Shown: positions 2,259-32,200 of the stretch, piece by piece
Layout of the letters: each line of letters starts with the position of its first letter
Position numbering within the stretch: the stretch's first letter is position 1
From: Candidatus Avimonas merdigallinarum
GTDB lineage: Bacteria; Bacillota; Clostridia; Oscillospirales; Acutalibacteraceae
Reading direction: 5' to 3'
DNA: 64,000 nt
Assembly: GCA_904377855.1 (NCBI GenBank)
Contig: CAJFGS010000021.1
Location: forward strand, 1 to 64,000
The notes under the pieces: generated by a model
Databases searched by the model: none
The model's input: the letters and a program-made list of their open reading frames with translations, nothing else
Told to the model about the DNA's origin: nothing
Position numbers and translations under genes: made by a program

Positions 2259-4079
2259 ATGGCCAATATTCCGGAAGAGAAAAAATATACGCCCGGCGCC
2301 CCCCAAAGCGGGCAGGAGGATGCCCGCCCGGCGCGCAGTTCCTGGCAGGAAGCGCAGCCGGCTGCTTCCTCCCCCCTGCATTCCTGGGAAGAAGGGCCCC
2401 CTGCCGCAGGCTCCGGGCCGTCTATCCCGGCGGATTTGTCGGCCGACGAAGCCGAGCTGCTGGAGCAGACCCTGGCGGAAATCCGCCTGCGCCGGGCCCG
2501 GGCCGCCCAGGCTCAGCCGGCAGCGCCGCTGGGCGGGAATGCCGTGAGCATGGTGCCGGAAGAGGATGCGCCCGCCCAGGACGAGGCCCTGGCCGAAGCG
2601 CTCCCCGACGGGGCGGCGGTCCCGGCGGAGGGGCCGGCGGCAGCCGCCACCCGCGGGCAGCGGTTTGCCGGCCGCCTGCTGTACATACTCGGCGGCTTTA
2701 TCCCCCACCGCGGGGATTCCGCGGCAGAAATCGTGCGCAAATGCATCTTTATCGTGGCGCTCATTACCCTGATCGGCTCCCTCTCCTACATTATCAACGA
2801 CATGTTGATCCAGCCCATGATCGGGGAGATGAACTACAACACCGTCCGGAGCTGGTACGATCCGGAAAACCCCGTGGACCCGCCGGCAGATTACGATCCC
2901 GCGAATTATCCCGAGGGGATCATGGATTCCTTTAAGGCGCTGTACGCCATGAATTCGGACGTCCGCGGCTGGATGACCTACACCGATCCCAGCCAGAACT
3001 GGCTGAAAATCGATTATCCCGTGATGTATTCGGGGGACAACAGCTATTACCTGGACCATAACTTCCAGAAGGCCAAGCATAAGGACGGCGCGCTGTTCTT
3101 TGACGAGCGCAACCACATCGATTCCCCGCAGTCCGAGAATAAGGTGCTGATCGTTTACGGCCACAATATGGCGAGCGGCCATATGTTCGCGCGGCTGAAC
3201 TATTTCCTGAATACCCGCAACGGCCTCAACTACGCCCGCTCCGCCCCGACGATTAACTTGGATACGCTGTACGAGCGGAGCGAATACAAGGTCTTTGCGG
3301 TCATGCTGCTCAACACCCGCTCGGAGGACGGGCCCTATTTCGACTACCTGCGCACCAGCTTCTCGGGCGACGCGGACTTCATGAACTTCGTGGCCAATAT
3401 CCGCGCCCGTTCCCTGTTCGATTATTCGGACGTGGACGTCAACACGGACGACGAACTGCTCATCCTCTCCACCTGCACGGGCGAAAGCGACGCCAAATTC
3501 CCCGAAGGCCGCTGCGTGGTCGTCGCCCGGAAGGTGCGGGACGGCGAAAGCTCCTTGGTAAACACCGGTTCCATCGTGCGCAACAGCGATGTGATCATGC
3601 CGCTGGCCTGGTACACCAACCAGGATATGGAGCCGCATGCGTATTACAGCGGGAATTTCACCATCCCCGGCCTGTGGTCGGACGACGGAACCACCGTCCC
3701 GCCTACTTCCTCCACCGATGACAACACGGGGGATACCACCGGCACCGACGGCACGACGACCCGGCCCCCGGTAGTGGTCCCGCCGTCTACTACGCCGCCC
3801 ACTTCGCCGCCTTCGACCGATCCGACGGATCCGACCAACCCCACGGATCCCACCGACCCGACCGAGCCGACCGAGCCCACTGACCCAACCGATCCCACCG
3901 ATCCGACGGATCCGACCGACCCAACCGATCCCACCGATCCGACCGAGCCGTCGGAGCCGACCGAGCCTACCGACCCAACGGAGCCGACCGAGCCGTCGGA
4001 GCCCACGGAACCTACCGGTTCCACGACGCTCCCGGAAACTTCTGAGCAAACGGGGGAGCAGACACAGCCGGCTGCATAA
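2259..4079 (+). CDS. srtB: Class B sortase with long cytoplasmic head and Asp-Pro-Thr repeat tail
   Basis: This is a membrane-bound transpeptidase that would attach surface proteins to peptidoglycan. Residues 1-160 form a Pro/Ala/Glu-rich cytoplasmic head, about 163-185 are a membrane anchor, and 220-430 are the class B sortase domain. The catalytic triad is visible: H302 (VYGHNMASGH), C406 (LSTCTGES) and R418 (EGRCVVVAR). Residues 520-586 are a low-complexity DPT/EPT tail, which is unusual because class B sortases normally end soon after the domain; at 606 residues the protein is more than twice the usual length. It starts 45 bp after the desulfurase stop with a GGAAGGAA ribosome binding site. 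The following CinA-fusion gene carries a degenerate paralogue. A likely substrate ending in SPETG is encoded at 29219-33337. Confidence 0.93.
   Translation: MANIPEEKKYTPGAPQSGQEDARPARSSWQEAQPAASSPLHSWEEGPPAAGSGPSIPADLSADEAELLEQTLAEIRLRRARAAQAQPAAPLGGNAVSMVPEEDAPAQDEALAEALPDGAAVPAEGPAAAATRGQRFAGRLLYILGGFIPHRGDSAAEIVRKCIFIVALITLIGSLSYIINDMLIQPMIGEMNYNTVRSWYDPENPVDPPADYDPANYPEGIMDSFKALYAMNSDVRGWMTYTDPSQNWLKIDYPVMYSGDNSYYLDHNFQKAKHKDGALFFDERNHIDSPQSENKVLIVYGHNMASGHMFARLNYFLNTRNGLNYARSAPTINLDTLYERSEYKVFAVMLLNTRSEDGPYFDYLRTSFSGDADFMNFVANIRARSLFDYSDVDVNTDDELLILSTCTGESDAKFPEGRCVVVARKVRDGESSLVNTGSIVRNSDVIMPLAWYTNQDMEPHAYYSGNFTIPGLWSDDGTTVPPTSSTDDNTGDTTGTDGTTTRPPVVVPPSTTPPTSPPSTDPTDPTNPTDPTDPTEPTEPTDPTDPTDPTDPTDPTDPTDPTEPSEPTEPTDPTEPTEPSEPTEPTGSTTLPETSEQTGEQTQPAA
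3816..4016 (+). repeat. In-frame Asp-Pro-Thr / Glu-Pro-Thr coding repeat
   Basis: About 22 tandem copies of a 9-bp unit (variants of CCGACCGAT) encode DPT or EPT/EPS triplets at the end of the sortase. The complement also reads open (Val-Gly-Ser repeats), but that is only a shadow of the repeat. Such tails are typical of wall-spanning stalks and are prone to length change by slippage. Confidence 0.9.
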
Positions 4080-4159
4080 TCCCTCCCGTACTGCTTTTTT
4101 GAAATCCGCTTTTTAAAATTCACCCGTTTTTGAAATCCACCCGAAAGGCCTGTCTGTCT

Positions 4160-5338
4160 ATGAAATCTGCCCTCCATGAAGTTTTGCTGATCAAGACCGG
4201 GGAACTGGCCCTCAAGGGCCTGAACCGGGGCACGTTTGAAGCGATCCTGATGAAAAACCTGCGGTACCGCTTAAAGCCGCTCGGCCCCTGCACCCTGCGG
4301 AAGGCCCAGTCCGCCATTTATGTGGAGCCGGAAAGCCCTTCGTTCGACATGGACGAGGCCAGCGACCGGGTATCCAAGGTTTTCGGGATCGCGGCGTACA
4401 GCCGGGCATGCGTGGTGGAAAAGGAGATCGGCGCCATCCTGGAGGCGGCCGCGTCCTATCTGGCGGACGAACTGGCGGACGCCGGGACCTTCAAGGTGGA
4501 GGCCAAGCGGAGCGATAAGTCCTTCCCGCTGCAATCCCCCGCGATCTGCGAGCAGGCCGGCGGCTATCTTCTGGAGCGGTTCCCCCACCTAAGGGTGGAC
4601 GTGCACGCTCCCGATGTGCTCGTGATGATTGAAATCCGGGACTTCGGCGCCTATATCCACGCCCGCCAGCTTCCCGGCGCGGGCGGGATGCCGGTCGGCT
4701 CCGCCGGCCGGGCCGGGCTGCTGATTTCCGGCGGCATCGATTCCCCGGTGGCCGGGTATATGATGGCCAAGCGGGGGGTGGAGCTTTGCTGCATCCACTT
4801 TGCGTCCCCGCCTTATACCAGCGAGCGGGCCGAAATGAAGGTGGTCTCCCTGCTCGAGCAGGTGGCGGCCTACGCCGGGCATATGGAACTGCACATCGTT
4901 CCCTTCACCCATATCCAGGAGGAAATCCAGCGCAGCTGCCCGGAGGATCTGTTCACCATCATCATGCGCCGCTTCATGATGCGGATTGCGACCGAAATCG
5001 GCAGGGCGGAAGGCTGCGGCGCCCTGGTGACCGGCGAAAGCGTCGGCCAGGTCGCCAGCCAGACCATCCCCGCCCTCGCCTGCACCGACGCGGCGGCCGG
5101 CCTGCCGGTTTTCCGCCCGCTGATTGGCATGGACAAGGAGGAAATCATCGCGGTTTCCCGCCGGATCGATACGTTTGATATTTCGATCCAGCCGTACGAG
5201 GACTGCTGCACGGTCTTCACCCCCCGGCATCCCCGCACCCGCCCCAAGCTGGAAAAGGTCCTGGAGGCCGAAGCCGCCCTGGACGCCCCGGCGCTGATTG
5301 CTCAAGCGGTGCAGGGCGTCCGCCGCCGTTCGATCTAA
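4160..5338 (+). CDS. thiI: tRNA 4-thiouridine synthetase ThiI
   Basis: ThiI adenylates uridine 8 of tRNA and inserts sulfur supplied by a cysteine desulfurase; in many bacteria it also feeds thiazole synthesis. The 392-residue protein opens with IKTGELALKGLNRGTFE, the ferredoxin-like/THUMP start, with the THUMP domain to about residue 165. The PP-loop ATP motif SGGIDSPVAGYMMAKRG follows at about 190. EDCCTVFTPRHP near the end matches the family. There is no C-terminal rhodanese domain, as is usual in Firmicutes. I chose the ATG at 4160, with AAAGG 11 bases upstream, rather than a TTG at 4130 that adds ten non-conserved residues. The sulfur donor is probably the desulfurase at 1074-2213. Confidence 0.93.
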   Translation: MKSALHEVLLIKTGELALKGLNRGTFEAILMKNLRYRLKPLGPCTLRKAQSAIYVEPESPSFDMDEASDRVSKVFGIAAYSRACVVEKEIGAILEAAASYLADELADAGTFKVEAKRSDKSFPLQSPAICEQAGGYLLERFPHLRVDVHAPDVLVMIEIRDFGAYIHARQLPGAGGMPVGSAGRAGLLISGGIDSPVAGYMMAKRGVELCCIHFASPPYTSERAEMKVVSLLEQVAAYAGHMELHIVPFTHIQEEIQRSCPEDLFTIIMRRFMMRIATEIGRAEGCGALVTGESVGQVASQTIPALACTDAAAGLPVFRPLIGMDKEEIIAVSRRIDTFDISIQPYEDCCTVFTPRHPRTRPKLEKVLEAEAALDAPALIAQAVQGVRRRSI

Positions 5339-5575
5339 AGGGCCCGCCGGCATAGGGAGCGGCGGGCAGGCCCGGGAGGGGCCTCGCCGGCGGCGCGCCG
5401 TTCCGGCTCTGCCGCACGCCGGGCGCCGGGCGGATTTCCTAGAGATTCCGGGCGCTCTGAAGGGCTGCCGGGCGGCTTACCTCCTTTTTTCCAGCGCCCC
5501 TTCTTGCGGGAACGATACAGAGTTTTATCATGGCATTGCCGCTTGGACGCACCCGGCGGCAGGAGGAATTACAGC

Positions 5576-8500
5576 ATGAATGCAGAAATCATCACCGTCG
5601 GCGCCGGGCTCCTGCTCGGCAATACGGCCAATGCAAGCGGGCAGTTCCTTTCCCATGAACTGGCTGCTTTCGGCATTGAGGTCACCCACCTTTCCACAGT
5701 CGGGGACGCTCCGTCCTCCCTGCGTGAAGCGCTGACGCATGCCCTCGGCCGGAGCGAACTGGTGGTGCTGGCCGGCGACGCGAAGGAAGAGGGGTCGGCG
5801 CAGGCGCTCGGCGTCCTGTCGGAGGTCCTTTCCCTCCCACTGGAACTGCATGAGGAAAGCTACGAACGGATCCAGGAATATTACCGCAACACCTGCCGGG
5901 AAATGCCGGCGGACGCCGACCGGCAGGCCCGGCTCCCGCGCGGGGCCACGGTTTTCCCCAACGATCACGGAACCGCGCCGGGCTGCGTGGTCAGCCGGTA
6001 CGGGCAGCAGATCTTCCTGCTGCCGGGGGAGCCCCGCGAGCTCATGCCGATGTTCAGCGACTATGTGGCCCCTTACCTGTCCAACTGCGCGGGGGGGACC
6101 ATCGTCTCCCGGACGGTCGGGGTGTTCGGCCTGTCCGAAACGGTGCTGACCGAACGGCTGGCCGACCTCATGAGCGAAGCCAACCCCAACGTGGCTTTAT
6201 ATGCCAAGGACGGGGAGGCCATCCTCCGGGTCACCGCCCACGCCGCAAACCGGGCGGACGCCCTCGCGCTGTGCGCCCCGGCGGTGGACGAAATCTGCCG
6301 GCGGCTGGGGGTCAACGTATACGGGGTGGATGTAGGCAGCCTGCAGAAGGCGGTCGTGGCGCTGCTGCTGGACAAGCAGCTGAAAATCGCCACGGCAGAA
6401 TCCTGCACGGCCGGCCTCCTCTCCGGCCGCCTGACCGAGGTCGCCGGCGTCTCGGCGGTGTTTGAGTGCGGGATCGCCGCCTATTCCAAAGAAATCAAGC
6501 GCAATATCCTCGGCGTGCCGGAGGACATCCTGGAGAAATACGGCGCCGTCAGCCCGGAAACCGCGCGCGCCATGGCGGTGGGGGCCCGCCGGGTGGGGAA
6601 CGCCAACCTGGGGGTAGGGATCACCGGCGTGGCCGGGCCGGATCCCAGCGAAGGCAAGCCGGTCGGCACCGTGTATGTTGCGCTGGCGGACGAAAAGCGG
6701 GTGTGGGTGAAAAAAATCGACACTAAGGAAGGGACAATCGATCGGGAATATGTCCGCTACCTTGCCACTTCCTACGCGCTGGATCTCGTCCGCCGGTATC
6801 TGGAGGCCCTGCCCACCGTCATGGCGGGTGGGGAAACGCTGGCCGTCCCTCCATCCCCTCCCGCGGCGGCGATCCCGGAGGCCGACGTCGCCCCCAAAAA
6901 GCGGCATCTCCTCCGGTCGGTCTTCCCCTGGAAGGGGGACAGCCGGAGCGACGTTATCCGCAAATCCGCCATCCTCGCGGTTTTCCTTTTGCTCATTGCC
7001 GCGGCGGGGATGATCCTGTACATGTACGTCTTCCAGCCGCTGGACAACCAGAGGCTGTACAGCCAGCTGGAGCTGCTTTATAATGTGAACAATCCCTCGG
7101 TCATCGAAAGCGATCTGGAGGGCGCGCCGGACGGGATGCTTTCCCAGTTCAACGCGCTGTATATGCGCAACAGCGATGTGCGCGGCTGGCTGCGGATCGA
7201 AGGCACCAACATCAATTATCCCGTCATGCGGGGGACGGACAGCGGATTCTACCGCACCCACAATTTCGATAAGCAGCCCACCATGTACGGCACCCCGTAT
7301 TTTGATCCCGAGGCCGCGCTGGTTTCCTCCGAATCGGTGAACCGGACGCTGGTGATCTACGGGAACAACGTGGGCGGCGGGCAGATGTTCTCCGATCTGA
7401 CCAGCTATTATAACAACCTGGAGTTCCTGCAGGAGCATCCCGTCATCGAAATGAACACCCTTTACCACAACGCCAAGTGGAAGATTTTTTCGGTCATGGC
7501 GGCTTCTTCGCCCGAAGACGGGGGCTTTGATTATACCTGCAATGTTTTCTCGGACGAAACCGATTTCCTGAGTTTTGCGGGCGAGCTGCGGATCCGCTCG
7601 CTGTATACCTATCCTGACGGGGTGGTAGACGTGCAGGAGGGCGATTCCCTTCTCCTGCTCTCCACCGATTTTGAGGACGTAGCCGGGTTCAACGGCGCCC
7701 GCCTGGTCATCGCGGCCCGCCAGATGCGGGAAGGGGAAAACGAAGACGTGGATTTAGGCGGCGTCGTCCTGAACAGCAGCGCCGTCATGCCCGACGGGTG
7801 GAAGGGCAGCCCCACGCAGAGCGTCAGCCGCACCAGCCGGCCCAGCGGTTCCGCCATTACCGGCGGCAGCACCGGCGAAACGGAATCCTCCTCCAGCACC
7901 CAGGATCTCACCTCCACGACGCCGACGGATTCCACGACGGAGGAATCCACCCGCCGGCCGTCCACCACCCCGACGAGTCCTGCCACCACGACGACCACGA
8001 CAACCGGGGAAACATCCGGCACTTCCGGCACGACGGCAACCACCACGACCACAATGGACGACACGGTGGGGCCGACCACCCAGCCGGATCCCAACCCGCC
8101 GACGTCCTCTACCAGCGGGCCTACGACCACTACGACCACGCCGCCCCCGCCGTCGGATAACACGCCGCCCATCCTTGCCGGGTCCCGGCTGGAATCGGAA
8201 TACCTGGAAAATTGTAAGGTGAGGAACCTGCGCACCGGGGAAAAAATTGAGCCGGAAACCAAGGAGGAACTCCAGTACCTGCTGGCCCAGCTCGTAAAAT
8301 CCGAATTGGGGACGGCCTCTACCTTCGGCACGCCGGGCACGCCGGGATACATGGCCGCGCAGAAGGCCCAGGCGATCGCTTCGTACACCTACATCCTTTA
8401 TTATAACCGCGCCTACCACGGCGATTTCTACCCCTGCTATCTGCCGGCTTTGGATCTGTCCAACCCGACCGACAAGCAGATTTACGACGCCGTAGGCGAG

Positions 8501-9103
8501 GTGGTCGGGATCAAAATCCTGTCCGGCAGTTCGCCCATCTGCGCCATGTACTTCTCCTCGTCGCCCGGGGTGACGGCGGACAACAAATATGTATACGGCG
8601 GCGCCCTCCCCTACGGCAGCGTCATCAGCGAGTACGACGATGAGGCGCACGTCGGGGATTCCGACTGGGAAACGGTCCTCACATATTCGCAGGCCGATAT
8701 CCTCGAACGGGTGGAAGACTACCTGGCTGACCCGGATGAGGGATATTTCCCCGAAGCTTCCATCGAGGGGGATTTCGCCATCCTGTCCTACGACCCCTAT
8801 GGGAAGTTCGCGCTGGAAACCAACATCACCTACCTCGATAAAAACGGGTACACCCGCTGCCTGTCCGGATACCAGTTCCGCGCCGCGCTGGGGCTGCGCT
8901 CCCAGGCGATCCAGGTGCTTTCCGTGCGGGACGGTACCGTCACCCTGCAGACGCAGGGCTGGGGGCACTGCGTGGGGATGAGCCAATGGGGAGCCGTCGG
9001 ATATGCCCAGGAAGAGGGATGGGATTACCGGAAGATCCTCAGCCACTATTATTCCATCACCACCTCCTCCGCCCACCGGCTGGTCGCCCCCGTTTGGGGC
9101 TGA
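5576..9103 (+). CDS. cinA: CinA - membrane span - inactive sortase B - SpoIID fusion protein
   Basis: One uninterrupted 1175-residue frame with a strong AGGAGG at 5561-5566. Residues 1-160 match the MoCF-like N-domain of CinA (AEIITVG, FPNDHGTAPG, FLLPGEPRELMPMF), but the GGLGPTxDD loop is replaced by AGDAKEEGS. Residues 255-412 are an intact PncC-type NMN amidase domain (TAESCTAGLLSGRLTEVAG, GVSAVFECGIAAYS, GITGVAGPDPS). Residues 464-487 are a membrane span. Residues 490-720 clearly parallel the sortase at 2259-4079 (NSDVRGW, NYPVMRG), but the catalytic His is N597 (IYGNNVGG) and Cys is D698 (LLSTDFE); only R709 remains. Residues 740-865 are a Thr/Ser/Pro linker. Residues 870-1165 are a SpoIID/LytB domain (VKSEL, AAQKAQAIASYTY, GWGHCVGMSQWGA). 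Predicted topology is CinA inside and SpoIID outside. CinA alone is normally about 415 residues, so the fusion is the oddity. Confidence 0.9.
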   Translation: MNAEIITVGAGLLLGNTANASGQFLSHELAAFGIEVTHLSTVGDAPSSLREALTHALGRSELVVLAGDAKEEGSAQALGVLSEVLSLPLELHEESYERIQEYYRNTCREMPADADRQARLPRGATVFPNDHGTAPGCVVSRYGQQIFLLPGEPRELMPMFSDYVAPYLSNCAGGTIVSRTVGVFGLSETVLTERLADLMSEANPNVALYAKDGEAILRVTAHAANRADALALCAPAVDEICRRLGVNVYGVDVGSLQKAVVALLLDKQLKIATAESCTAGLLSGRLTEVAGVSAVFECGIAAYSKEIKRNILGVPEDILEKYGAVSPETARAMAVGARRVGNANLGVGITGVAGPDPSEGKPVGTVYVALADEKRVWVKKIDTKEGTIDREYVRYLATSYALDLVRRYLEALPTVMAGGETLAVPPSPPAAAIPEADVAPKKRHLLRSVFPWKGDSRSDVIRKSAILAVFLLLIAAAGMILYMYVFQPLDNQRLYSQLELLYNVNNPSVIESDLEGAPDGMLSQFNALYMRNSDVRGWLRIEGTNINYPVMRGTDSGFYRTHNFDKQPTMYGTPYFDPEAALVSSESVNRTLVIYGNNVGGGQMFSDLTSYYNNLEFLQEHPVIEMNTLYHNAKWKIFSVMAASSPEDGGFDYTCNVFSDETDFLSFAGELRIRSLYTYPDGVVDVQEGDSLLLLSTDFEDVAGFNGARLVIAARQMREGENEDVDLGGVVLNSSAVMPDGWKGSPTQSVSRTSRPSGSAITGGSTGETESSSSTQDLTSTTPTDSTTEESTRRPSTTPTSPATTTTTTTGETSGTSGTTATTTTTMDDTVGPTTQPDPNPPTSSTSGPTTTTTTPPPPSDNTPPILAGSRLESEYLENCKVRNLRTGEKIEPETKEELQYLLAQLVKSELGTASTFGTPGTPGYMAAQKAQAIASYTYILYYNRAYHGDFYPCYLPALDLSNPTDKQIYDAVGEVVGIKILSGSSPICAMYFSSSPGVTADNKYVYGGALPYGSVISEYDDEAHVGDSDWETVLTYSQADILERVEDYLADPDEGYFPEASIEGDFAILSYDPYGKFALETNITYLDKNGYTRCLSGYQFRAALGLRSQAIQVLSVRDGTVTLQTQGWGHCVGMSQWGAVGYAQEEGWDYRKILSHYYSITTSSAHRLVAPVWG

Positions 9104-10320: not shown

Positions 10321-11028
10321 ATGGCAAACGGGAAAATCATGGTCGTCGACGACGACAGCAATATCTGCGAGCTGCTCCGGCTCTACCTGGAAAAAGAGGA
10401 TTTCGAGGTCTGCATTGCGGAAAACGGCGCGCGGGCGCTGGAGATCTTCGACAGCGAAAAGCCCGATCTGATGCTCCTGGACATCATGATGCCCCAGCTG
10501 GACGGCTGGCAGGTGTGCCGGGAGATCCGGAAGAAATCCTCCTGCCCGATTATCATGCTGACGGCGAAGGGGGAAGTGTTCGACAAGGTGCTGGGGCTGG
10601 AACTCGGCGCCGACGATTACGTGGTCAAGCCCTTTGAGGCGAAGGAAGTCGTGGCCCGGGTCAAGGCGGTGCTCCGCCGCGCCGGCGGGCAAAATGAAAA
10701 AAAGACCAAGGAAGTCCGCTATGACGGGCTGTACATCAACATGGAAAATTATGAGCTCCGGGTGCGGGGGAAGCAGATCGACACCCCGCCCAAGGAGATG
10801 GAACTCATCTACCATCTTGCCAGCAACCCGAACCGGGTGTACACCCGCGATCAGCTGCTGGACGAAGTGTGGGGCTTTGAATACTACGGGGACAGCCGCA
10901 CGGTGGACGTCCACATCAAGCGGCTGCGCGAGAAGCTGGACGGCGTGTCCGATCAGTGGACGCTGAAAACCGTCTGGGGCGTAGGGTACAAGTTCGAAGT
11001 TCACGACAAGAACCCGGAGGAAAAATAA
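10321..11028 (+). CDS. OmpR/PhoB-family response regulator
   Basis: A 235-residue DNA-binding response regulator. The receiver domain (1-120) has the acidic pocket VVDDD, phosphoacceptor D54 (LLDIMMP), T81 (MLTAKGE) and K103 (VVKPFEA), all intact. Residues about 135-228 are a winged-helix domain (YTRDQLLDEVWG, DSRTVDVHIKRLREKL, VWGVGYKFE). AGAGGAGG lies just before the start. The histidine kinase gene follows after 73 bp and an HtrA-type protease gene comes next. This order recalls the CssRS secretion-stress system that controls htrA in Bacillus, so secretion or envelope stress is a reasonable but unproven signal. Confidence 0.93.
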   Translation: MANGKIMVVDDDSNICELLRLYLEKEDFEVCIAENGARALEIFDSEKPDLMLLDIMMPQLDGWQVCREIRKKSSCPIIMLTAKGEVFDKVLGLELGADDYVVKPFEAKEVVARVKAVLRRAGGQNEKKTKEVRYDGLYINMENYELRVRGKQIDTPPKEMELIYHLASNPNRVYTRDQLLDEVWGFEYYGDSRTVDVHIKRLREKLDGVSDQWTLKTVWGVGYKFEVHDKNPEEK

Positions 11029-11101
11029 CCGGCCTGCGTTATTCCGGCCCTTCACCTGGCCGGCCACGGCCCTGGCAATCCCTGTGAAAGGAGGGGCTGC
11101 G

Positions 11102-12550
11102 TTGTTCAAAAGCATCTTTGCCAAATATTTTACCGTCATATCCCTCATTATCGTCATCAGCTTTGTCGCCATGGGCGGGATGCAGCTGCTGTTCGCCACC
11201 CAGTACTGGGTATCCGAGAAGCAGGCCCTCCTGGAGGAAAACACCCTCACCATGGCCAAGATGACCGCCGAGCATACCGCGCAGGATACGCTCAACCCCA
11301 ATCAGTACAACATCCAGGGGGATCTCCTCGCCCCTTATATGGGAATTATGGCGGACGCGCTGGACGCAACCGTGCTGGTGGTGGGGAACGACGGGACGGT
11401 CATCCTCTGCTCCGACCCGCTTCTCATGAGCGGGGATCACATGCTGACGGCCTCCGTCCAGTCCAAGATGGACGGAGACCGCTTCTTTGAGGTAGGGAAA
11501 CTAGGCGGGTTCTATGTCAGCCGCCAGTACACTGCCGGGGAGCCGATTGTCCTGGAAAGCCAGCAGCTCCAGGTGGGGTATGTGTTTGTTTCCACCTCTG
11601 CCACCGGGCTGAGCGAATACCTGATGAACAACCTGCAGGTCTTTTTCCTCTCCGCGCTCGGGGTGCTGACGCTGACCTTTATCGTCCTGTATATCATGAC
11701 CTACCGCATGGTGCGCCCGCTTCGCCAGATGGCCGCGGCCACCCGCAGCTTCGGCATGGGGGACTTCAGCTACCGCATCCCGGTCCACGGGAAGGACGAG
11801 GTGGCGGAACTGGCCGCCTCCCTGAACAATATGGCGGTTTCCCTTTCTTCGGTGGAGGGGATGCGCCGCAGCTTTGTGGCCAATGTGTCCCATGAGCTGA
11901 AAACCCCGATGACCACCATCGCCGGCTTTATCGACGGGATTCTGGACGGCACCATCCCGGAGGAAAAGCGGGAGCATTATCTGAAGATTGTCTCGGACGA
12001 AGTCAAGCGCCTTTCCCGGCTGGTGAAGTCGATGCTGGACCTCTCCCGCATCGACAACGGCGAGCTCCGGCTCAAGCCGGTCCGCTATGACCTGACGGAA
12101 CAGGTCTGCACCGTCCTCCTCTCCTTTGAAAAGCGGATCGAAGAAAAGGAGATCCGGGTGGAAGGGCTGGAAGACTGCCCGCGCATCGAGGTAAACGCCG
12201 ATTTTGACCTGCTGGGACAGGTAATTTACAACCTGGTGGACAATGCCGTCAAATTTATTGACGTCGGCGGCACCCTGTGGGTTCGGCTCGAACGGCGGGA
12301 CGGCCGGGTCTACTGCGCCGTGCGCAACACCGGCGGCGGCATCCCCGCCGAGGAGATGCCCCACATCTTTGAACGGTTTTATAAAAGCGACCGTTCCCGT
12401 TCCCTGGACAAAAACGGGATGGGCCTTGGCCTGTATATTGTGAAAACGGTCATCAACCTCCACCATGGGGAGATCGTGGTCCGTTCGACCGAGGGCGGGT
12501 ACACCGAATTCGAATTCTGGCTGCCGGACGCAGAACTGCTCAAACGCTGA
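11102..12550 (+). CDS. Sensor histidine kinase (HAMP, HisKA, HATPase_c)
   Basis: A 482-residue membrane kinase paired with the preceding regulator. It has an N-terminal membrane span (about 8-30), an extracellular sensor of about 140 residues, a second span (about 178-200), a HAMP segment, and the dimerisation domain with phosphoacceptor His in FVANVSHELKTPMTT. The ATP-binding domain has the N box NLVDNAVKF and G boxes GGGIPAEEMPHIFERFY and GMGLGLYIVKT. The start is a TTG at 11102 with AAAGGAGG 7 bases upstream; the in-frame GTG at 11084 would put that ribosome site inside the gene, so it is unlikely. Confidence 0.92.
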   Translation: MFKSIFAKYFTVISLIIVISFVAMGGMQLLFATQYWVSEKQALLEENTLTMAKMTAEHTAQDTLNPNQYNIQGDLLAPYMGIMADALDATVLVVGNDGTVILCSDPLLMSGDHMLTASVQSKMDGDRFFEVGKLGGFYVSRQYTAGEPIVLESQQLQVGYVFVSTSATGLSEYLMNNLQVFFLSALGVLTLTFIVLYIMTYRMVRPLRQMAAATRSFGMGDFSYRIPVHGKDEVAELAASLNNMAVSLSSVEGMRRSFVANVSHELKTPMTTIAGFIDGILDGTIPEEKREHYLKIVSDEVKRLSRLVKSMLDLSRIDNGELRLKPVRYDLTEQVCTVLLSFEKRIEEKEIRVEGLEDCPRIEVNADFDLLGQVIYNLVDNAVKFIDVGGTLWVRLERRDGRVYCAVRNTGGGIPAEEMPHIFERFYKSDRSRSLDKNGMGLGLYIVKTVINLHHGEIVVRSTEGGYTEFEFWLPDAELLKR

Positions 12551-12679: not shown

Positions 12680-14230
12680 ATGACCGACTGGTTTGATAAA
12701 AAAGAAAACGGCACCCCCGAATCGACGCCGGAACAAAACGGCGCTTCCCCGGCTGCTCCGGAAGAAAAGCAGCCCGCCGCCGGCTGGTCTTCTCCGGCCT
12801 CTTCCGTCGTCCCTCCCGCTTCCTTTGGTGACAGCGGGGAGAGCGCACCGGCCTCCTCCGCAGCGCCGGCGGGCGAGGCGAACAACGTGACCTACCGGTA
12901 CGGCGTCAACGCCCCCAGCCCGGTCCCCTCCAACGAATCGGACAGCACGCACGCCGGGACGGGAACCTCCGCCCCGCAAAACGCGGCCCATTCCACGGGG
13001 GGATACCAGCCGCAGGGGAATTACAACCCGTACGGCTGGCAGCAGCCCTCCTATCCGGGAGGCGCGCCAAGCCAGCCTCCCAAGAAGCCGAAGAAAAAGG
13101 GCGCGACCGTCGCCATTGCCACCCTCAGCGTGGTCTGCGCAGCCTTGATTGTTACCCTGTCGGTGCTCCTGGCCGTGGCAATCAGCGACAACCAGCTGCC
13201 GACGGATACGTCCAGTCCCAACTCGTCCACCACCGGCACCACCAACGGGGTCAATGAAAACGCCCCGACGCTGGATATCCAGGAGCCGGCGGAGGAAGGG
13301 CTGGCCACCCCCGCCATCGTGCAGAAGAACCTCGATTCTGCCGTGGTCATCACTATGTACCAGAACAATGCATACTATGGGAACCGCCTGGTCCAGGCGG
13401 GCGCAGCGACCGGAATCATCTGGACGGCCGACGGGTATATCATCACCAACGCCCACGTCGTCTACGACGAGGACAACGCCAAGGTGTACGACCGGATCGA
13501 TGTGGAAACCTACGACGGCACCCTTTATGAAGGCGCCCAAATCGTCGGCTATGACACCTACACCGACTTGGCGGTGATCAAGGTGGACGCGGAGAACCTC
13601 TCCCCCGCGGAATTCGGGGATTCCTCCCAGCTGCAGCTGGGGGACAGAGTGGTGGCCATTGGCAACGCCGGCGGGCTGAACTGGACGGTCACCCAGGGGA
13701 TTGTCTCCGGCCTGGCGCGGGACGTATATGAAGACACCGGCTACGCCATCAAATGCCTGCAGGTCGACGCGGCGATCAACCCCGGCAACTCGGGCGGCCC
13801 GCTGATGAATTCGCAGGGCCAGGTGGTGGCCATCAATTCCGCTAAAATTGCCGCGCAGGATTACGAAGGGCTGGGCTTCTCCATCCCGATCAATGAAGCA
13901 AAAACCATCCTGGACGACCTGGTGAAATACGGCTACGTCAAAGGGCGGGTAATGCTGGGCATCTCGGGTTCCTCCCTGTACGGCACCGGCTTCCTGATTC
14001 AGGAAATCCAGCCCGACTCCTGCCTTGCCGGGACGGAAGCCCAGGCGGGGGATGTCATTACCGCGATCAACGGGACCACCATCGCCGACTTTGAGGCGCT
14101 GCAGACCGAACTTTCGAAGTACAGCGTGGGCGATACGATTGAACTGACCCTCCTGCGGTACGACAACCGCACCCATTCCACCCGGGAACTGACGGTCCAG
14201 TGCACGCTGATAGAATCCACCCTCAATTAA
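12680..14230 (+). CDS. htrA: HtrA/DegP-type membrane-anchored serine protease with PDZ domain
   Basis: A 516-residue quality-control protease at the outer face of the membrane. Residues 1-140 are a long Pro/Ser/Ala/Gln-rich cytoplasmic region, followed by a PKKPKKK stretch and a membrane span at about 143-168. The trypsin-like domain has H259 (ITNAHVV), D296 (YTDLAVIKV) and S371 (NPGNSGGPL), a complete triad. Residues about 415-505 are a PDZ domain. The length is somewhat above usual because of the cytoplasmic region. It lies 129 bp behind the histidine kinase, suggesting that the two-component system controls it. An AAAGGA ribosome site precedes the ATG. Confidence 0.94.
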   Translation: MTDWFDKKENGTPESTPEQNGASPAAPEEKQPAAGWSSPASSVVPPASFGDSGESAPASSAAPAGEANNVTYRYGVNAPSPVPSNESDSTHAGTGTSAPQNAAHSTGGYQPQGNYNPYGWQQPSYPGGAPSQPPKKPKKKGATVAIATLSVVCAALIVTLSVLLAVAISDNQLPTDTSSPNSSTTGTTNGVNENAPTLDIQEPAEEGLATPAIVQKNLDSAVVITMYQNNAYYGNRLVQAGAATGIIWTADGYIITNAHVVYDEDNAKVYDRIDVETYDGTLYEGAQIVGYDTYTDLAVIKVDAENLSPAEFGDSSQLQLGDRVVAIGNAGGLNWTVTQGIVSGLARDVYEDTGYAIKCLQVDAAINPGNSGGPLMNSQGQVVAINSAKIAAQDYEGLGFSIPINEAKTILDDLVKYGYVKGRVMLGISGSSLYGTGFLIQEIQPDSCLAGTEAQAGDVITAINGTTIADFEALQTELSKYSVGDTIELTLLRYDNRTHSTRELTVQCTLIESTLN

Positions 14231-14746: not shown

Positions 14747-15709
14747 TTACTCCCTTTCCTGCACGCGGCTGCCGGGGGCTATTTCCTCTGTCTGCGCCGC
14801 CCCTGGGCCGGGTAAGGGCGCCGGCATTCCCTCGGGCAGCACCGGCGGGGCGGTCACCACCCCCGATTCCACCGCCGCACGGCTGATGTCGGAGGGGAGC
14901 GCCGTGGGCGGCGCGGTGTCCAGCGAGGTCATTTCCACCATATTCTTCCAAAAACGCTTGGGCATATGCTGCCGGCGCAGGCGGGGGTTCACCCGTTCCC
15001 GGATCGCCACCGCGTCGTAAAACCGCTTCCAGAGCTGCCGGAACGCCCGTTCGTCCGGCGCATACTCCGGGAGGCGGAAATCCCCCGCCGACGTCAGGTA
15101 CCATTCCCGGGTGTCGTACACCCCGGCGGCCTGCCGGTTTTCATCGTGGAGGATAAACGGCATGGTGCGGTAACGGTCGGCAAAATCCGGCATCAGCAGG
15201 GCCAGCACATCGTTTTCCGGGGTAATCCGGGCATAGTACACCCCATTCTCCATCCGGGCGAAGCGGACGAACTGCCGGAGGGATCCCGCCTCCTTCGACA
15301 CCCGGGCGGCAAGCCGGTCCAGGGCCATCACCCGGGGATCGGTCAGGCGGCTGCAGACCGACGGGCCCACCCGCATCCCCAGCCGGATAAACCGGTAGAT
15401 CACATCCCCCTTCCCCTCCTCGTTGGAAAGGAAGGCCGTCCAGATCCGCTCGTAAACGTCAGCCCCGAGCCGCCGGCGTACCCCGGCGGCAACCCGCTCC
15501 GCCTTTTCCGCATCGGCCGGGATATCCTCCACCCAGGCCCCGAGCTGGGTCTGGTACTGCCCGCCCACAATCGCTGCAGGGGGCGGCTTATGGGTATACG
15601 ATTCAAAAACCGCGGTCAGCAGCCCCTCCAGGGTGTCGTCGTACCGGAAGATCACCCTCTCCCCCTCCCCGGGCCGGGCCGGGGAAATCACATAGCCGGG
15701 ATCGACCAT
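14747..15709 (-). CDS. DUF4130 / TIGR03915-type putative DNA-metabolism protein
   Basis: A 320-residue protein that matches the family found next to the radical SAM DNA-repair protein of the preceding gene. It opens with YVISPARPGEGERVIFRYDDTLEG, and the region FLSNEEGKGDVIYRFIRLGMRVG and the later FRQLWKRFYDAVAIRERVNPRLRRQHMPKRFWKNMVE are typical as I recall the family; the biochemical function is unknown. An upstream extension of the frame is a shadow of the radical SAM gene. GGAAGGAGGG before 15709 sets the start, which overlaps the upstream gene end by 22 bp, so the pair is translationally coupled. A Pro/Ala-rich tail follows the conserved part. SOS-type boxes upstream of the operon support a role in the DNA-damage response. 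Confidence 0.82.
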   Translation of the reverse strand: MVDPGYVISPARPGEGERVIFRYDDTLEGLLTAVFESYTHKPPPAAIVGGQYQTQLGAWVEDIPADAEKAERVAAGVRRRLGADVYERIWTAFLSNEEGKGDVIYRFIRLGMRVGPSVCSRLTDPRVMALDRLAARVSKEAGSLRQFVRFARMENGVYYARITPENDVLALLMPDFADRYRTMPFILHDENRQAAGVYDTREWYLTSAGDFRLPEYAPDERAFRQLWKRFYDAVAIRERVNPRLRRQHMPKRFWKNMVEMTSLDTAPPTALPSDISRAAVESGVVTAPPVLPEGMPAPLPGPGAAQTEEIAPGSRVQERE

Positions 15710-17049
15710 GGCAGGCCCTCCTTCCGCCCGGCCTGTCCTCCCGTCCCGTCCGCCTCCGCCGTCCCGGACAGGGCCGGAACCGACGGGGCGGGGAAAAAGG
15801 AAAGCTGTTCCGCTCCCAGTGCAAAGGGCAGGCCGCGGGGGTTGCGGCGGGTGTCCGCCGTCAGGTTCTGATAAATGAAGGAGGGGCTCAGCCGCACGCC
15901 GGGGTACATCTGCCCCCGGCAGGTGATGAAATAGACCGCCCGCCGGAGGACCACCCCTATTTTCTTCAAATCCTCGAAGGTCAGCTTCCCGGCCCGCCGG
16001 GCCGTCAGGATCCGCTGCGCGGATTTCGGCCCGATCCCCGGCACCCGCAGCAGGACCTCCCGATCGGCGCGGTTGACCTCCACGGGGAAGTCGCCGAGAT
16101 GCCGCAGCGCCCACCCGCATTTGGGGTCCAGCAGGGGATCCAGCGACGGCTGGCGTTCGCTGAGGAGTTCCTCCGCGCAAAACCCGTACTGCCGGATCAG
16201 CCAGTCCGCCTGGTACAGCCGGTGCTCCCGGAGCAGGGGAGGCGGCTGATCCCGCGGCAGCAGCGCGTTGGTCCCCACCGGGATATAGGCGGAATAAAAC
16301 ACCCGCTTGAGGCCGTACTGCTTATACAGCCCCTGGCTCAGGCGCAGGATCTGCCAGTCGGTATCCGGGGTGGCCCCGATGATCATCTGGGTGGCCTGCC
16401 CCGCGGGGGCAAATACCGGCGCGTGCCGGAAGACGGCGAGCTCCTGGCTGTTCTGCCGGAGGGTGTCCCGGATCGCCGCCATTGGCCGGAGGATATTCTC
16501 CTTGGTTTTATTGGGGGCGAGGACCCTGAGGCTCCGCTCGCTGGGGAGCTCGATATTCACGCTCATGCGGTCGCAGAGCATCCCCAGCTTGGTCACCAGT
16601 TCCGGGGAGCAGCCGGGGATCGCCTTGGCATGGATATAGCCGTTGAAGCGGTACTTTCCCCGGAGCAGCTCCAGCACCCGGCACATCCGCTCCATCGACG
16701 CGTCCGGGCTCTGCATCACGCCGGAACTCAGGAAAAGCCCCTCGATGTAATTCCGCTTGTAAAATTCGATGGTCAGGCTGGCCAGCTCGTCCGGGGTGAA
16801 GGCGGCGCGGGGCACGTCGTTGCTGCACCGGTTGACGCAGTACTGGCAGTCGTAGATGCAGTAATTGGTCATCAGCACCTTCAAAAGGGAAATGCACCGC
16901 CCGTCGGCGGCGAAGCTGTGGCAGATCCCGCCGGCGCTCGCGCTGCCTACCATCCCGTCCCGCCCGCCCCGGCTGGCCCCGCTGGACGTGCAGGCCGCGT
17001 CGTATTTGGCGGAATCGGTCAATATGCTCAGCTTGTCCATCAAATCCAT
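15688..17049 (-). CDS. Putative DNA modification/repair radical SAM protein (TIGR03916 type)
   Basis: A 453-residue radical SAM enzyme. The [4Fe-4S]-binding motif CxxxCxxC is seen in NYCIYDCQYCVNRC near residue 68. The conserved start MDLMDKLSILTDSAKYDAAC and the neighbouring DUF4130 gene identify the family. A helix-hairpin-helix DNA-binding motif, LLRVPGIGPKSAQRILTAR, lies around residue 345, fitting a DNA substrate. The reaction is not known to me. The start at 17049 has AAAGGAGG 6 bases upstream; the frame also runs 60 bases further through the promoter, which is not coding. The promoter overlaps two LexA-like sites, so damage induction is likely. Confidence 0.88.
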   Translation of the reverse strand: MDLMDKLSILTDSAKYDAACTSSGASRGGRDGMVGSASAGGICHSFAADGRCISLLKVLMTNYCIYDCQYCVNRCSNDVPRAAFTPDELASLTIEFYKRNYIEGLFLSSGVMQSPDASMERMCRVLELLRGKYRFNGYIHAKAIPGCSPELVTKLGMLCDRMSVNIELPSERSLRVLAPNKTKENILRPMAAIRDTLRQNSQELAVFRHAPVFAPAGQATQMIIGATPDTDWQILRLSQGLYKQYGLKRVFYSAYIPVGTNALLPRDQPPPLLREHRLYQADWLIRQYGFCAEELLSERQPSLDPLLDPKCGWALRHLGDFPVEVNRADREVLLRVPGIGPKSAQRILTARRAGKLTFEDLKKIGVVLRRAVYFITCRGQMYPGVRLSPSFIYQNLTADTRRNPRGLPFALGAEQLSFFPAPSVPALSGTAEADGTGGQAGRKEGLPWSIPAM

Positions 17050-17076
17050 GGCGGCGCCTCCTTTGCTGTCCTCCCC

Positions 17077-17116
17077 AGTATAGAACAAATTTTCGTATTT
17101 GTCAAACATTTGTTCT
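17077..17116 (-). promoter_or_regulatory. Sigma-A promoter overlapped by two LexA (SOS) boxes
   Basis: On the minus strand, TTGACA (17100-17105), a 17-bp spacer and TATACT (17077-17082) form a near-perfect promoter. AGAACAAATGTTTG (17103-17116) matches the Gram-positive SOS consensus CGAACRNRYGTTYC at 12 of 14 positions and overlaps the -35. CGAAAATTTGTTCT (17082-17095) matches at about 11 of 14 and sits between -35 and -10. Bound LexA would block this promoter. Confidence 0.82.
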
Positions 17117-29218: not shown

Positions 29219-32200
29219 TTAGCGAGCGCGCCGTTTACGCGAATGCAGCAAGAATGCCACCCCCGTCAGGCTTACCGTCGCTAACGCACAAGGTATCCAT
29301 AAAGTGCGGACAGGCTCGCCGGTTTCGGGGGAAACGGTGTCGTTTCCTTCCTCGGGTTTGTCTGTATCTCCACCGGCAGGAGGCGTATCCGGTTCCGGAT
29401 CGGTTTCGTCGGTAGGCGACGTATCCGGGTCAGTAGTCCCACTGTCCGCCGTTGCGGTAACAAAGCGAGACAGGGCGGAACGCTGTACGCCGGTTTCCTC
29501 CGAGGATGCCTGTACATACCAGTAGTACGCTGTTTCCGGCTCCAGCCCTTCCAGCGTCACCTGTGCTTTTTCGCCGCTGGCGACATCTTCGGCCTGTCCG
29601 ACCGTCTGCTCGGTATACACATTCAGGGTAAAGGAATCGGTAGTCAAGGTGCGCGGCGTCCCGTCAAAATCGACGCTCAGGTGGTACACGTCGTGATCCT
29701 GGTCGCCGCCGTCGTAGGTATCCGTATCGTCGTAGAAATTGAAATCGTCCAGCAGCGGCGAATAGGCGTTCATAAACACATAGTTGTTTTCCAGGTCAAA
29801 ATACAGGAATTTGATGTATTGGCTGCCGCCCTGGGGATCCGCCTGGTAGTCGGTACAGATCAGGTAAACCGGACGCTCGGCCGTACCATCTCCATCGTCG
29901 TCATACCGCTGTACGTTGATGGCCGCGCCGTGATAGTGGCCGTTGAGGACGGCGAAAATGTTGCTGTGTTTGGAGACAACCTCCTCCAGCATGTATTCGC
30001 CCGTCTGATCCAGCTTGCCGTCCTTATTGATAAAGCGGTGGAAGCAGAGGATGGCTTTGCGGTCGCTGTACTGGTCAAGGACCTGGTTCATCCAGGCCGC
30101 CTCGTCCTCGAAGGCGTCCCAGCTCATGTACAGGATGATGAAATCCTGCCCATTTTCGGAAATCAGGTCGTAATGCCCCTTGTTGTTCTCATAGCTCCCG
30201 CCATAGTAATCGCGGCCGGCATAGCGTTCCTCGCCAAAATATTTGTAATACTGGTCGTACCATTCCCGGCCGTACTGGACGTCATGGTTGCCGGCCAGCA
30301 CCCCATAAGGAAGCCCCGCGTCATCAAGGATTTGCATCGCGACGTCCGCTTCCTCCCATTGGAACTGCTTGTTGTACTGGTTGACAATATCGCCGGTGTG
30401 GATCAGGTATTTGGTCTTTAACTGCTCGCTGTTTTCCACGATCCATTCGTTCATCCCGTGGAAATTCTCAGGAAAGTTCTGCGCGTAATACTGGGTATCG
30501 GTGATCCAGGCAAAGCTGAAGTCATAGGCGTCGGTGGAGGGGAAGCCGTTCATCGGGAAGCGCCCGTCTTCACCAACCGTCGTGCCTTCTGTGTTCAGCA
30601 CGGGAGCTGGGTCGGCGGAGGGGCCGTTGCCCTCGGGGCGGTTCTGCACCACAACCGTAATCTTCCCGTCCCGTACATAACCCGCGGCCGGGATTTCGGC
30701 GCGCAGCTCCGTCTGGCCGGAGGCGAGACACGTCCACGTCCCGTCGGCATGATTCAGCGCGTACATCTGGACGGTGCGGCCGTCCGCCGACCCGTTCCAG
30801 GTCAGCTCCACCGTATCGCCGTCAGCCAGTTCCCCGGTTTCCACCTCAAAGCGATGGTAAGGCGCGTCATAGGAAACCTGTGTGGTCAGCCCGTCCGCCC
30901 AGTCCGCGGCCTGCCCGCCGCTGATCGGGTAATCGCCGCTGCCGGCGTACACCGCCGTGAAGCCGTCGCCCGGCGTGTAGGAAGCGCCAACTTTAAAGGA
31001 CAAATCGGTATGATCCCCATTAGGATCAGTCACCACGGCGCTGAGCGTCGCATCCGTGCCGTCAACCTGCGACTGGAGATTGCTGAAAACCGGGTTTTCC
31101 TCCGGCGTGTGGAAGACGATAGACTCTTCCGTGACATTGCCCGCCGCGTCGGCGGCTGTCACCGTAAGTTCATGATCCCCCATGGGCAGCGCCGTTGTGG
31201 AAGCGGTATACGGCAGGGAGATCTCCTCGCCGTCCAGTTCCGCCGTCAAGGCAACCGCCCCGTCCTCGCCGCTGACCGCCGCTTTGATGGTGAAGACGCC
31301 CTTCACGGTTTCGCCGTCCGCCGGGCTGAGCTCCACCACAGGGGCGGTGTTGTCCACCGTCACCGTGCTGGTCACGGTTTTCCCGTCCGCTTCCGCCGTC
31401 AGGGTGTGTTCCCCGTCGCTGAATTTTGTCGTATCCCACATAGCAGCCTGAGCGTTGAGCTTTTCCGCCGGGATGGTGAAGACAACGTCCAGCCACTCCT
31501 GCATGCCTTCCGCATCGCCAATGTTGTAGTTTTTGTCCGGATCCAGGTTATCCGGCTGCAGGACGGTGCCGTCCGCCAGCGTCAAATAGAAATTCTTGGC
31601 CTTGATATCATCGTTGTTTTCCGGGGAATCCGGGCGGATCGTCGCCAGAGTGGAACCAGCCCAGATGGTGATGGTCAGCTTCGCGCTGCCGTCCTCTTGG
31701 TATTCCAGGTACTTTTTGTCCACAAACACCGTACGGGTATCGGGGTCGCCCTTGACCGCCAGGCCCAGGATGTCGTCACCCACGGCGATCCCGTTTTTAT
31801 AGTAGCTGCTCAGGCCGGTGATCTTGGCGGTAAAATACACGCCGCTTTCCATCGCCCCGGCCGTTTCCAAAGGCAGGCCATCCACCTGGATCGTGGCCTT
31901 AGAAGGTGGGTTGGGCACGGCCGCGCTGACCGTTACCTGCCCGCTGACCAGCGCTCCGTCGCTAGGCAGAAGCCGTACATCCTCCGGCTGGATATGCTCG
32001 ATTTGGATCGTGCTTTTCACCGATTCGCCCTTGTTCATTGACACCGTCGAGTCCGTTGCCGTCGCATACACCTCAATTGAAGCGCAGTTGAGCAGCTCGC
32101 TGCCGGGAATGGTCACATAATACAGGCCGTCGCTGGAAGGGTTCTTGCCCTTAAAGGAAACATAGTCTGTCCCGGTGTCCTTTTTAAGCAGGATCTGGAA

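Follow-up and report, generated by a model that had tools for sequence, protein, structure and literature searches.

A conserved fusion of CinA to a pseudo-sortase and a SpoIID domain in Candidatus Avimonas and related genera, a candidate transmembrane module for wall remodelling

Control of a wall hydrolase outside the cell by a degenerate nucleotide-enzyme fold inside it has been described for the SteA-SteB-RipA system of Mycobacteriales, in which steA-steB fusions also exist (PMC12977500), and a MoCF-type enzyme was turned into a divisome scaffold in the Glp/GlpR system of Corynebacteriales (PMC10522489). In the COG1058 ADP-ribose pyrophosphatase, the domain found at the start of CinA, three acidic residues (one Glu and two Asp; motifs GxEx3G and GGL/IGPx3D) proved essential by mutagenesis (PMC3680494). 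The amidase site of Thermus CinA uses Tyr, Lys and Thr, and Glu-156, Glu-187 and Lys-211 of the same protein contact ADP-ribose (at the ribose) or its metal, closing the site from the KH domain (PMC4246079). The gene described here resides in a 64,000-nucleotide stretch of Candidatus Avimonas merdigallinarum DNA (contig CAJFGS010000021.1, positions 1 to 64,000; hereafter the window), and joins in one chain a complete CinA, a transmembrane (TM) span, a class B sortase domain deprived of its catalytic His and Cys, a Thr/Pro-rich linker and a SpoIID/LytB domain. To our knowledge, no described protein joins a cytosolic enzyme of nicotinamide adenine dinucleotide (NAD) salvage to an extracellular wall-cutting domain. 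The parts of the gene are as follows.

5561-5566, + strand: Shine-Dalgarno AGGAGG, 9 nt 5' of the ATG at 5576, read from the sequence
5576-9103, + strand: fusion gene, 1175 aa (open frame, profile matches, relatives)
5576-6085, + strand: COG1058 (MoCF-type) domain, residues 1-170 (profile match and residue alignment; PMC3680494, PMC4246079)
6107-6325, + strand: CinA KH domain, residues 178-250 (profile match)
6338-6802, + strand: PncC nicotinamide mononucleotide (NMN) amidase domain, residues 255-409 (profile match)
6962-7024, + strand: single TM span, residues 463-483 (hydropathy)
7076-7735, + strand: pseudo-sortase B, residues 501-720, with N597 at 7364-7366 and D698 at 7667-7669
7826-8164, + strand: Thr/Pro-rich linker, residues 751-863, of a sequence not conserved among relatives
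8165-9091, + strand: SpoIID/LytB domain, residues 864-1172, with the catalytic Glu E910 at 8303-8305

The frame has zero internal stops, and the order of domains read in the original prediction agrees with the profile matches. The NCBIfam CinA profile NF001813 scores 395 bits over residues 1-410 (cut-off 379), PF02464 scores 169.7 bits (cut-off 23.5), and COG1058, KH and PncC, in this order, make up a complete CinA. The class B sortase profile TIGR03064 matches residues 465-698 (E 5.5e-31; 108 bits, under the cut-off of 154), the SpoIID_LytB profile TIGR02669 residues 926-1162 with 85.7 bits against a cut-off of 83.3. Pfam profiles alone miss both the sortase (E 0.047) and the SpoIID (E 0.11) domains of the fusion. 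One hydrophobic span only, at about residues 463-483, is present in the chain. Because CinA is preceded by no hydrophobic stretch, the positive-inside rule and hydropathy make it likely that the N terminus and CinA lie inside the cell, the sortase and SpoIID domains outside, as had been proposed.

The fusion is real and conserved. Eight more assemblies of the genus carry it uninterrupted (G001-G006, G008, G010; two match from residue 8, and the G004 copy is cut by a contig end, its last part residing on another contig), as does one assembly of another genus (G034); Candidatus Avimonas caecicola and Candidatus Avimonas faecium are among these relatives. When 298 genomes of the family were searched, five more copies came to light (G103, G200, G181, G306, G348), along with two which lack the start of COG1058 (G152, G232), and reading the loci confirmed them. 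The fusion is found in the genera g1, g24, g86 and g135, that is, in three genera besides the one analyzed, and homologues are hence not always separate genes; the identity of the chain among copies ranges from 78% down to 45%. The source genome is 88% complete and split into 75 contigs, and an artefact of assembly or frame had to be considered. This was rejected because near-full-length copies recur across assemblies and genera: the same frame is shared by nine assemblies of the genus and by members of three other genera, with 45-78% identity. Its probability is practically nil. The one apparently split copy (G011) is broken by a stretch of N in its assembly. About one third of the CinA frames listed for the family, by approximate count, are long enough to hold an extra domain. 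Among 246 genomes of the class, in which a fused match would rank first, no uninterrupted CinA-SrtB match was found outside the order; in G584, of the same order, the match is interrupted by a stop.

The amidase part of CinA is intact, as had been stated. Tyr, the general-base Lys and Thr correspond to Y303, K308 and T350, are kept in essentially all the copies compared, and the domain is predicted to deamidate NMN to nicotinic acid mononucleotide (NaMN) still. The COG1058 part has decayed. Absence of the GGLGPTxDD loop had been noticed earlier; that the GxEx3G motif has lost its catalytic Glu had not. Since the three essential acidic positions read G11 (Glu lost), D44 (kept) and A75 (Asp lost), this half is predicted to be inactive as ADP-ribose pyrophosphatase, and the loss of catalytic residues spans the whole genus of the window. 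The equivalents of Thermus Glu-156, Glu-187 and Lys-211 are all kept in the window (E155, E188 and K211). Throughout the genus E188 and K211 are invariant, whereas two of its species have Gln in place of E155. All 20 unfused full-length CinA proteins retain the three COG1058 residues, which are lost in 16 of 39 CinA proteins fused to sortase (a tally in which the N-interrupted G011 copy is taken as fused). The raw Fisher p for loss in fused versus unfused proteins is 0.005, with G011 taken as unfused and kinship ignored; as the test is blind to kinship, weight is put on the separate lineages in which loss occurred, which are the whole window genus and several others. Some relatives have a stand-alone PncC devoid of COG1058, hence the amidase does not force the retention of a non-catalytic COG1058 domain.

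About 80 related loci were read for gene arrangement, and two types were distinguished. Type II, which is that of the window, features iscS, a live sortase gene, thiI, and the CinA-dead sortase-SpoIID fusion. In type I, iscS and thiI are followed by a CinA joined or adjacent to a live sortase, and then by a second gene, which encodes a degenerate CinA (CinA'), a TM span and SpoIID, in many cases with a dead sortase before SpoIID. Both the live sortase paralogue and the CinA'-SrtB'-SpoIID gene of related genera had been missed in the earlier account. In the window, the three genes preceding the fusion are:

1074-2213, + strand: cysteine desulfurase of the IscS/NifS family, which opens the conserved locus (profile match; same position in relatives)
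2259-4079, + strand: sortase paralogue of class B, live (His, Cys and Arg all in place), with a TM span and a Thr/Pro/Asp/Glu-rich tail
4130-5338, + strand: ThiI, tRNA 4-thiouridine sulfurtransferase (TIGR00342 above cut-off)

The gap between thiI and the fusion (5339-5575) measures 237 bases here, is much shorter in other species of the genus, and may hold a regulatory element.

Replacement of the catalytic His and Cys of the fused sortase by N597 and D698, read in the original prediction, is confirmed by alignment, and the Arg (R709) is retained. The class B fold is retained too, because the structure model of the domain (predicted local distance difference test score, pLDDT, 86; predicted template modelling score, pTM, 0.88) matches known class B sortase structures, the top ones being 2oqw, 5yfk and 5b23 (E ~1e-19). 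Sortase domains fused to SpoIID lack both catalytic His and Cys in 30 cases out of 30. CinA-sortase fusions without SpoIID are live in 20 cases and dead in six, two of the latter (L013, L142) being cut by contig ends and belonging to triple fusions; stand-alone sortases are live in 48 cases and dead in six. In the sortase tree a supported branch divides nearly all live sortases from the dead ones associated with SpoIID, with a few later deaths on the live side, and the 23 dead sortases of type II loci form one supported clade (approximate likelihood ratio test, SH-aLRT, 97). A single origin of all dead sortases is no more than likely, given that the tree has no root and contains some long branches.

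Pairwise ratios of nonsynonymous to synonymous substitution rates (dN/dS) are about 0.13 for COG1058 and 0.08-0.23 for the dead sortase; SpoIID gave 0.26 in a single pair, and the linker exceeded 1 in one pair of close relatives. These figures are rough, many pairs being saturated and only the computable ones counted. Within this limit, the pseudo-domains are under purifying selection, the linker not. Being so constrained, and having SpoIID always alongside, the dead sortase is more than a leftover, and a role as spacer or wall-sensing module, put forward earlier, is possible.

The dead domain may as well be the central component of a heteromeric live/dead sortase pair, in which it would hold or regulate the live enzyme or present its substrate, SpoIID would open the wall for anchoring, and CinA would be a membrane anchor. 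A live SrtB is found in the same locus as the SpoIID-fused dead sortases wherever the contig covers the region, and the SrtB-type genes of the genome are exactly two, the one at 2259-4079 and the fusion. Dead sortases with no live neighbour are found, however, at three loci which lack SpoIID (L082, L083, L086), and no proteins with sorting signals were linked to the live SrtB; two other sortases of the genome reside in a pilus-like cluster. On balance such a pair is quite unlikely to be the main role of the gene. The pilus-like cluster, on another contig (C13:47689-52110), combines the two further sortases with LPXTG-type proteins. The live sortase has a peculiarity of its own, a 9/18/45-base tandem repeat (window positions 3814-4017) which encodes a C-terminal tail of the PTDPTE type, unusual among sortases and similar to the linker of the fusion.

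The CinA' of other genera is genuinely related to CinA. Combined into a profile, 19 CinA' regions matched unfused CinA with E values of 1.4e-15 (162 columns) and 2.9e-19 (305 columns), five control families (IscS, ThiI, response regulator, HtrA and kinase) giving 0.088 or worse. Drift of an iterated profile was considered as the source of these matches and rejected, as they held with a profile made of unfused CinA only and against the five controls. In some genera CinA'-TM-SpoIID genes have no sortase (L069:9142-11535, L060:3497-5878, L076:3805-6129, L092:1475-3883, L093:3307-5853), and parts resembling COG1058 and PncC are recognisable in them. CinA' and SpoIID are separate neighbouring genes in L097:8834-11481 and L089:10692-13095, which probably represent the unfused state. 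Because the second gene of other genera carries a degenerate CinA', the theme conserved appears to be a CinA-type domain kept inside, enzyme or not, with SpoIID outside.

This theme bears on the explanation that the fusion is a passenger, formed when ancestral neighbouring cinA and sortase genes lost the stops between them, CinA being an ordinary, tethered NMN amidase which takes no part in transmembrane signalling. In many relatives cinA and srtB are indeed adjacent separate genes, the partner of CinA alternates between a live (type I) and a dead (type II) sortase, and the intact PncC of the fusion belongs to the only CinA/PncC found in the genome. Against it stand the degenerate CinA', which other genera keep as the cytosolic portion of their SpoIID proteins, and a COG1058 domain under purifying selection after the loss of catalysis, though a stand-alone PncC, as found in relatives, would suffice. 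The explanation is judged rather unlikely.

The catalytic Glu of SpoIID (E910) is conserved in every SpoIID domain which covers the position; the longest frame of L003, considered as a canonical SpoIID reference, proved to belong to an adjacent gene and was left out. A role in sporulation had been suggested, and would take the form of sporulation-specific wall remodelling at engulfment. The genome does encode a sporulation set, namely SpoIID, SpoIIP and SpoIVA, with SpoIIP on the contig of the window (C21:66512-67132), about 2.5 kb past its right end. These are, however, separate genes, hence the fusion is not the sporulation SpoIID; as such it was rejected, scoring 79 bits on TIGR02870 (stage II sporulation protein D equivalog; cut-off 235), against 267 bits of the canonical gene on contig C52. 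The surroundings of the fusion speak against this role as well:

944-972, + strand: sigma-70-like promoter TTGTCA-17-TATAAT upstream of iscS (11 of 12 consensus matches; by consensus only)
10321-11028 and 11084-12550, + strand: WalR/WalK-like two-component pair, below equivalog cut-offs, downstream of the fusion
12680-14230, + strand: HtrA-like protease, below equivalog cut-off, downstream of the fusion

The iscS-srtB-thiI run looks like a housekeeping context with a vegetative-type promoter-like site, and the WalR/WalK-like and HtrA-like genes are found downstream also in several species of the genus. Together with the separate SpoIID, these features favour a vegetative role in the wall over engulfment. 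A sporulation-specific role of the fusion is very unlikely. Farther along, the window encodes on the - strand a putative DNA modification/repair radical SAM protein (15688-17109; TIGR03916 far above cut-off) and an open frame of 1372 residues (29219-33337).

The fusion is best read, tentatively and at somewhat less than an even chance, as a wall-remodelling module which spans the membrane and has a nucleotide-binding sensor or scaffold in the cytosol, similar in logic to SteAB. Inside, PncC would convert NMN to NaMN, and the COG1058-KH part would act as a dimeric sensor or scaffold. Because metal-binding and catalytic residues are lost and those holding the ribose are kept, the latter is proposed to bind a nucleotide without cutting it, either ADP-ribose or another phosphonucleotide reporting NAD turnover or the state of wall precursors. 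Outside, the dead sortase would serve for non-catalytic docking to the live sortase encoded nearby in the locus, to the wall, or to both, and the flexible Thr/Pro linker would give SpoIID access to the glycan strands that it would cleave. The state of the ligand, or the binding of a partner, inside the cell may, via the TM helix, position or gate the wall-cutting domain, the wall being opened where the live sortase anchors proteins. In a stricter version, deemed somewhat unlikely, the chain would be a switch by itself, the NAD-salvage enzyme sensing a pyridine or adenine nucleotide and gating the peptidoglycan lytic domain, with the dead sortase coupling it to the live one.

Several observations weigh against the transmembrane module. 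Type I loci join a functional CinA to a live sortase, and CinA is therefore not specific to SpoIID or to the dead sortase. Genus g135 lacks the catalytic part of COG1058 altogether, hence the proposed sensor is not universal. In some relatives which have an unfused CinA or a stand-alone PncC the arrangement is absent, and the full-length AlphaFold model (nine sequences) is poor, at pLDDT 49, yielding no evidence on contacts between domains. That NAD metabolism or the state of the cell is coupled to the wall, as advanced in the original prediction, is plausible, and the fusion suggests an undescribed route by which either may act on wall remodelling. Should the CinA part prove to be a sensor, NAD or nucleotide status would be physically and directly linked with wall remodelling in mostly uncultured gut Clostridia; were the stricter switch true, a new class of metabolism-to-cell-wall signalling would be at hand. 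The rule that the SpoIID-fused sortases compared are all dead, with a live one nearby, makes the function of the pseudo-sortase directly testable.

The component domains are each known, and their combination was found undescribed, in line with the earlier claim: a search of open-access literature, outside which most subscription papers fall, revealed no protein or locus of such make-up, and nothing relevant on CinA-sortase fusions, inactive or degenerate sortase domains, or membrane NMN deamidases and peptidoglycan. As CinA/PncC proteins with COG1058 (PMC4246079, PMC3680494), the fusion has all three domains in order and the Tyr, Lys and Thr of PncC, but lacks the catalytic Glu and one Asp of COG1058, and is predicted to be anchored in the membrane, a large half of the chain lying outside the cell. 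Its sortase domain shares fold, length and Arg with class B sortases (PDB 2oqw, 5b23, 4lfd), yet has neither His nor Cys, and is joined to CinA and SpoIID. The catalytic Glu and a C-terminal GxGHxxGMSQ-type motif are those of SpoIID/LytB lytic transglycosylases such as C. difficile SpoIID (PMC6221140); here the domain is joined to a cytosolic enzyme and a pseudo-sortase, the sporulation SpoIID being a separate gene. By analogy only, and with no assignment of the fusion to either system, Glp/GlpR and SteAB are the nearest. Glp/GlpR is alike in that a MoCF-type enzyme was repurposed as an envelope or division scaffold with a membrane partner, and differs in using MoeA instead of CinA, a separate receptor and no wall-lytic domain. 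SteA-SteB-RipA is similar in logic, with a dimeric degenerate nucleotide-enzyme fold inside, a TM link and a wall hydrolase outside, but is made of other domains, whereas in the fusion the wall-cutting domain belongs to the chain itself, with a sortase fold in between.

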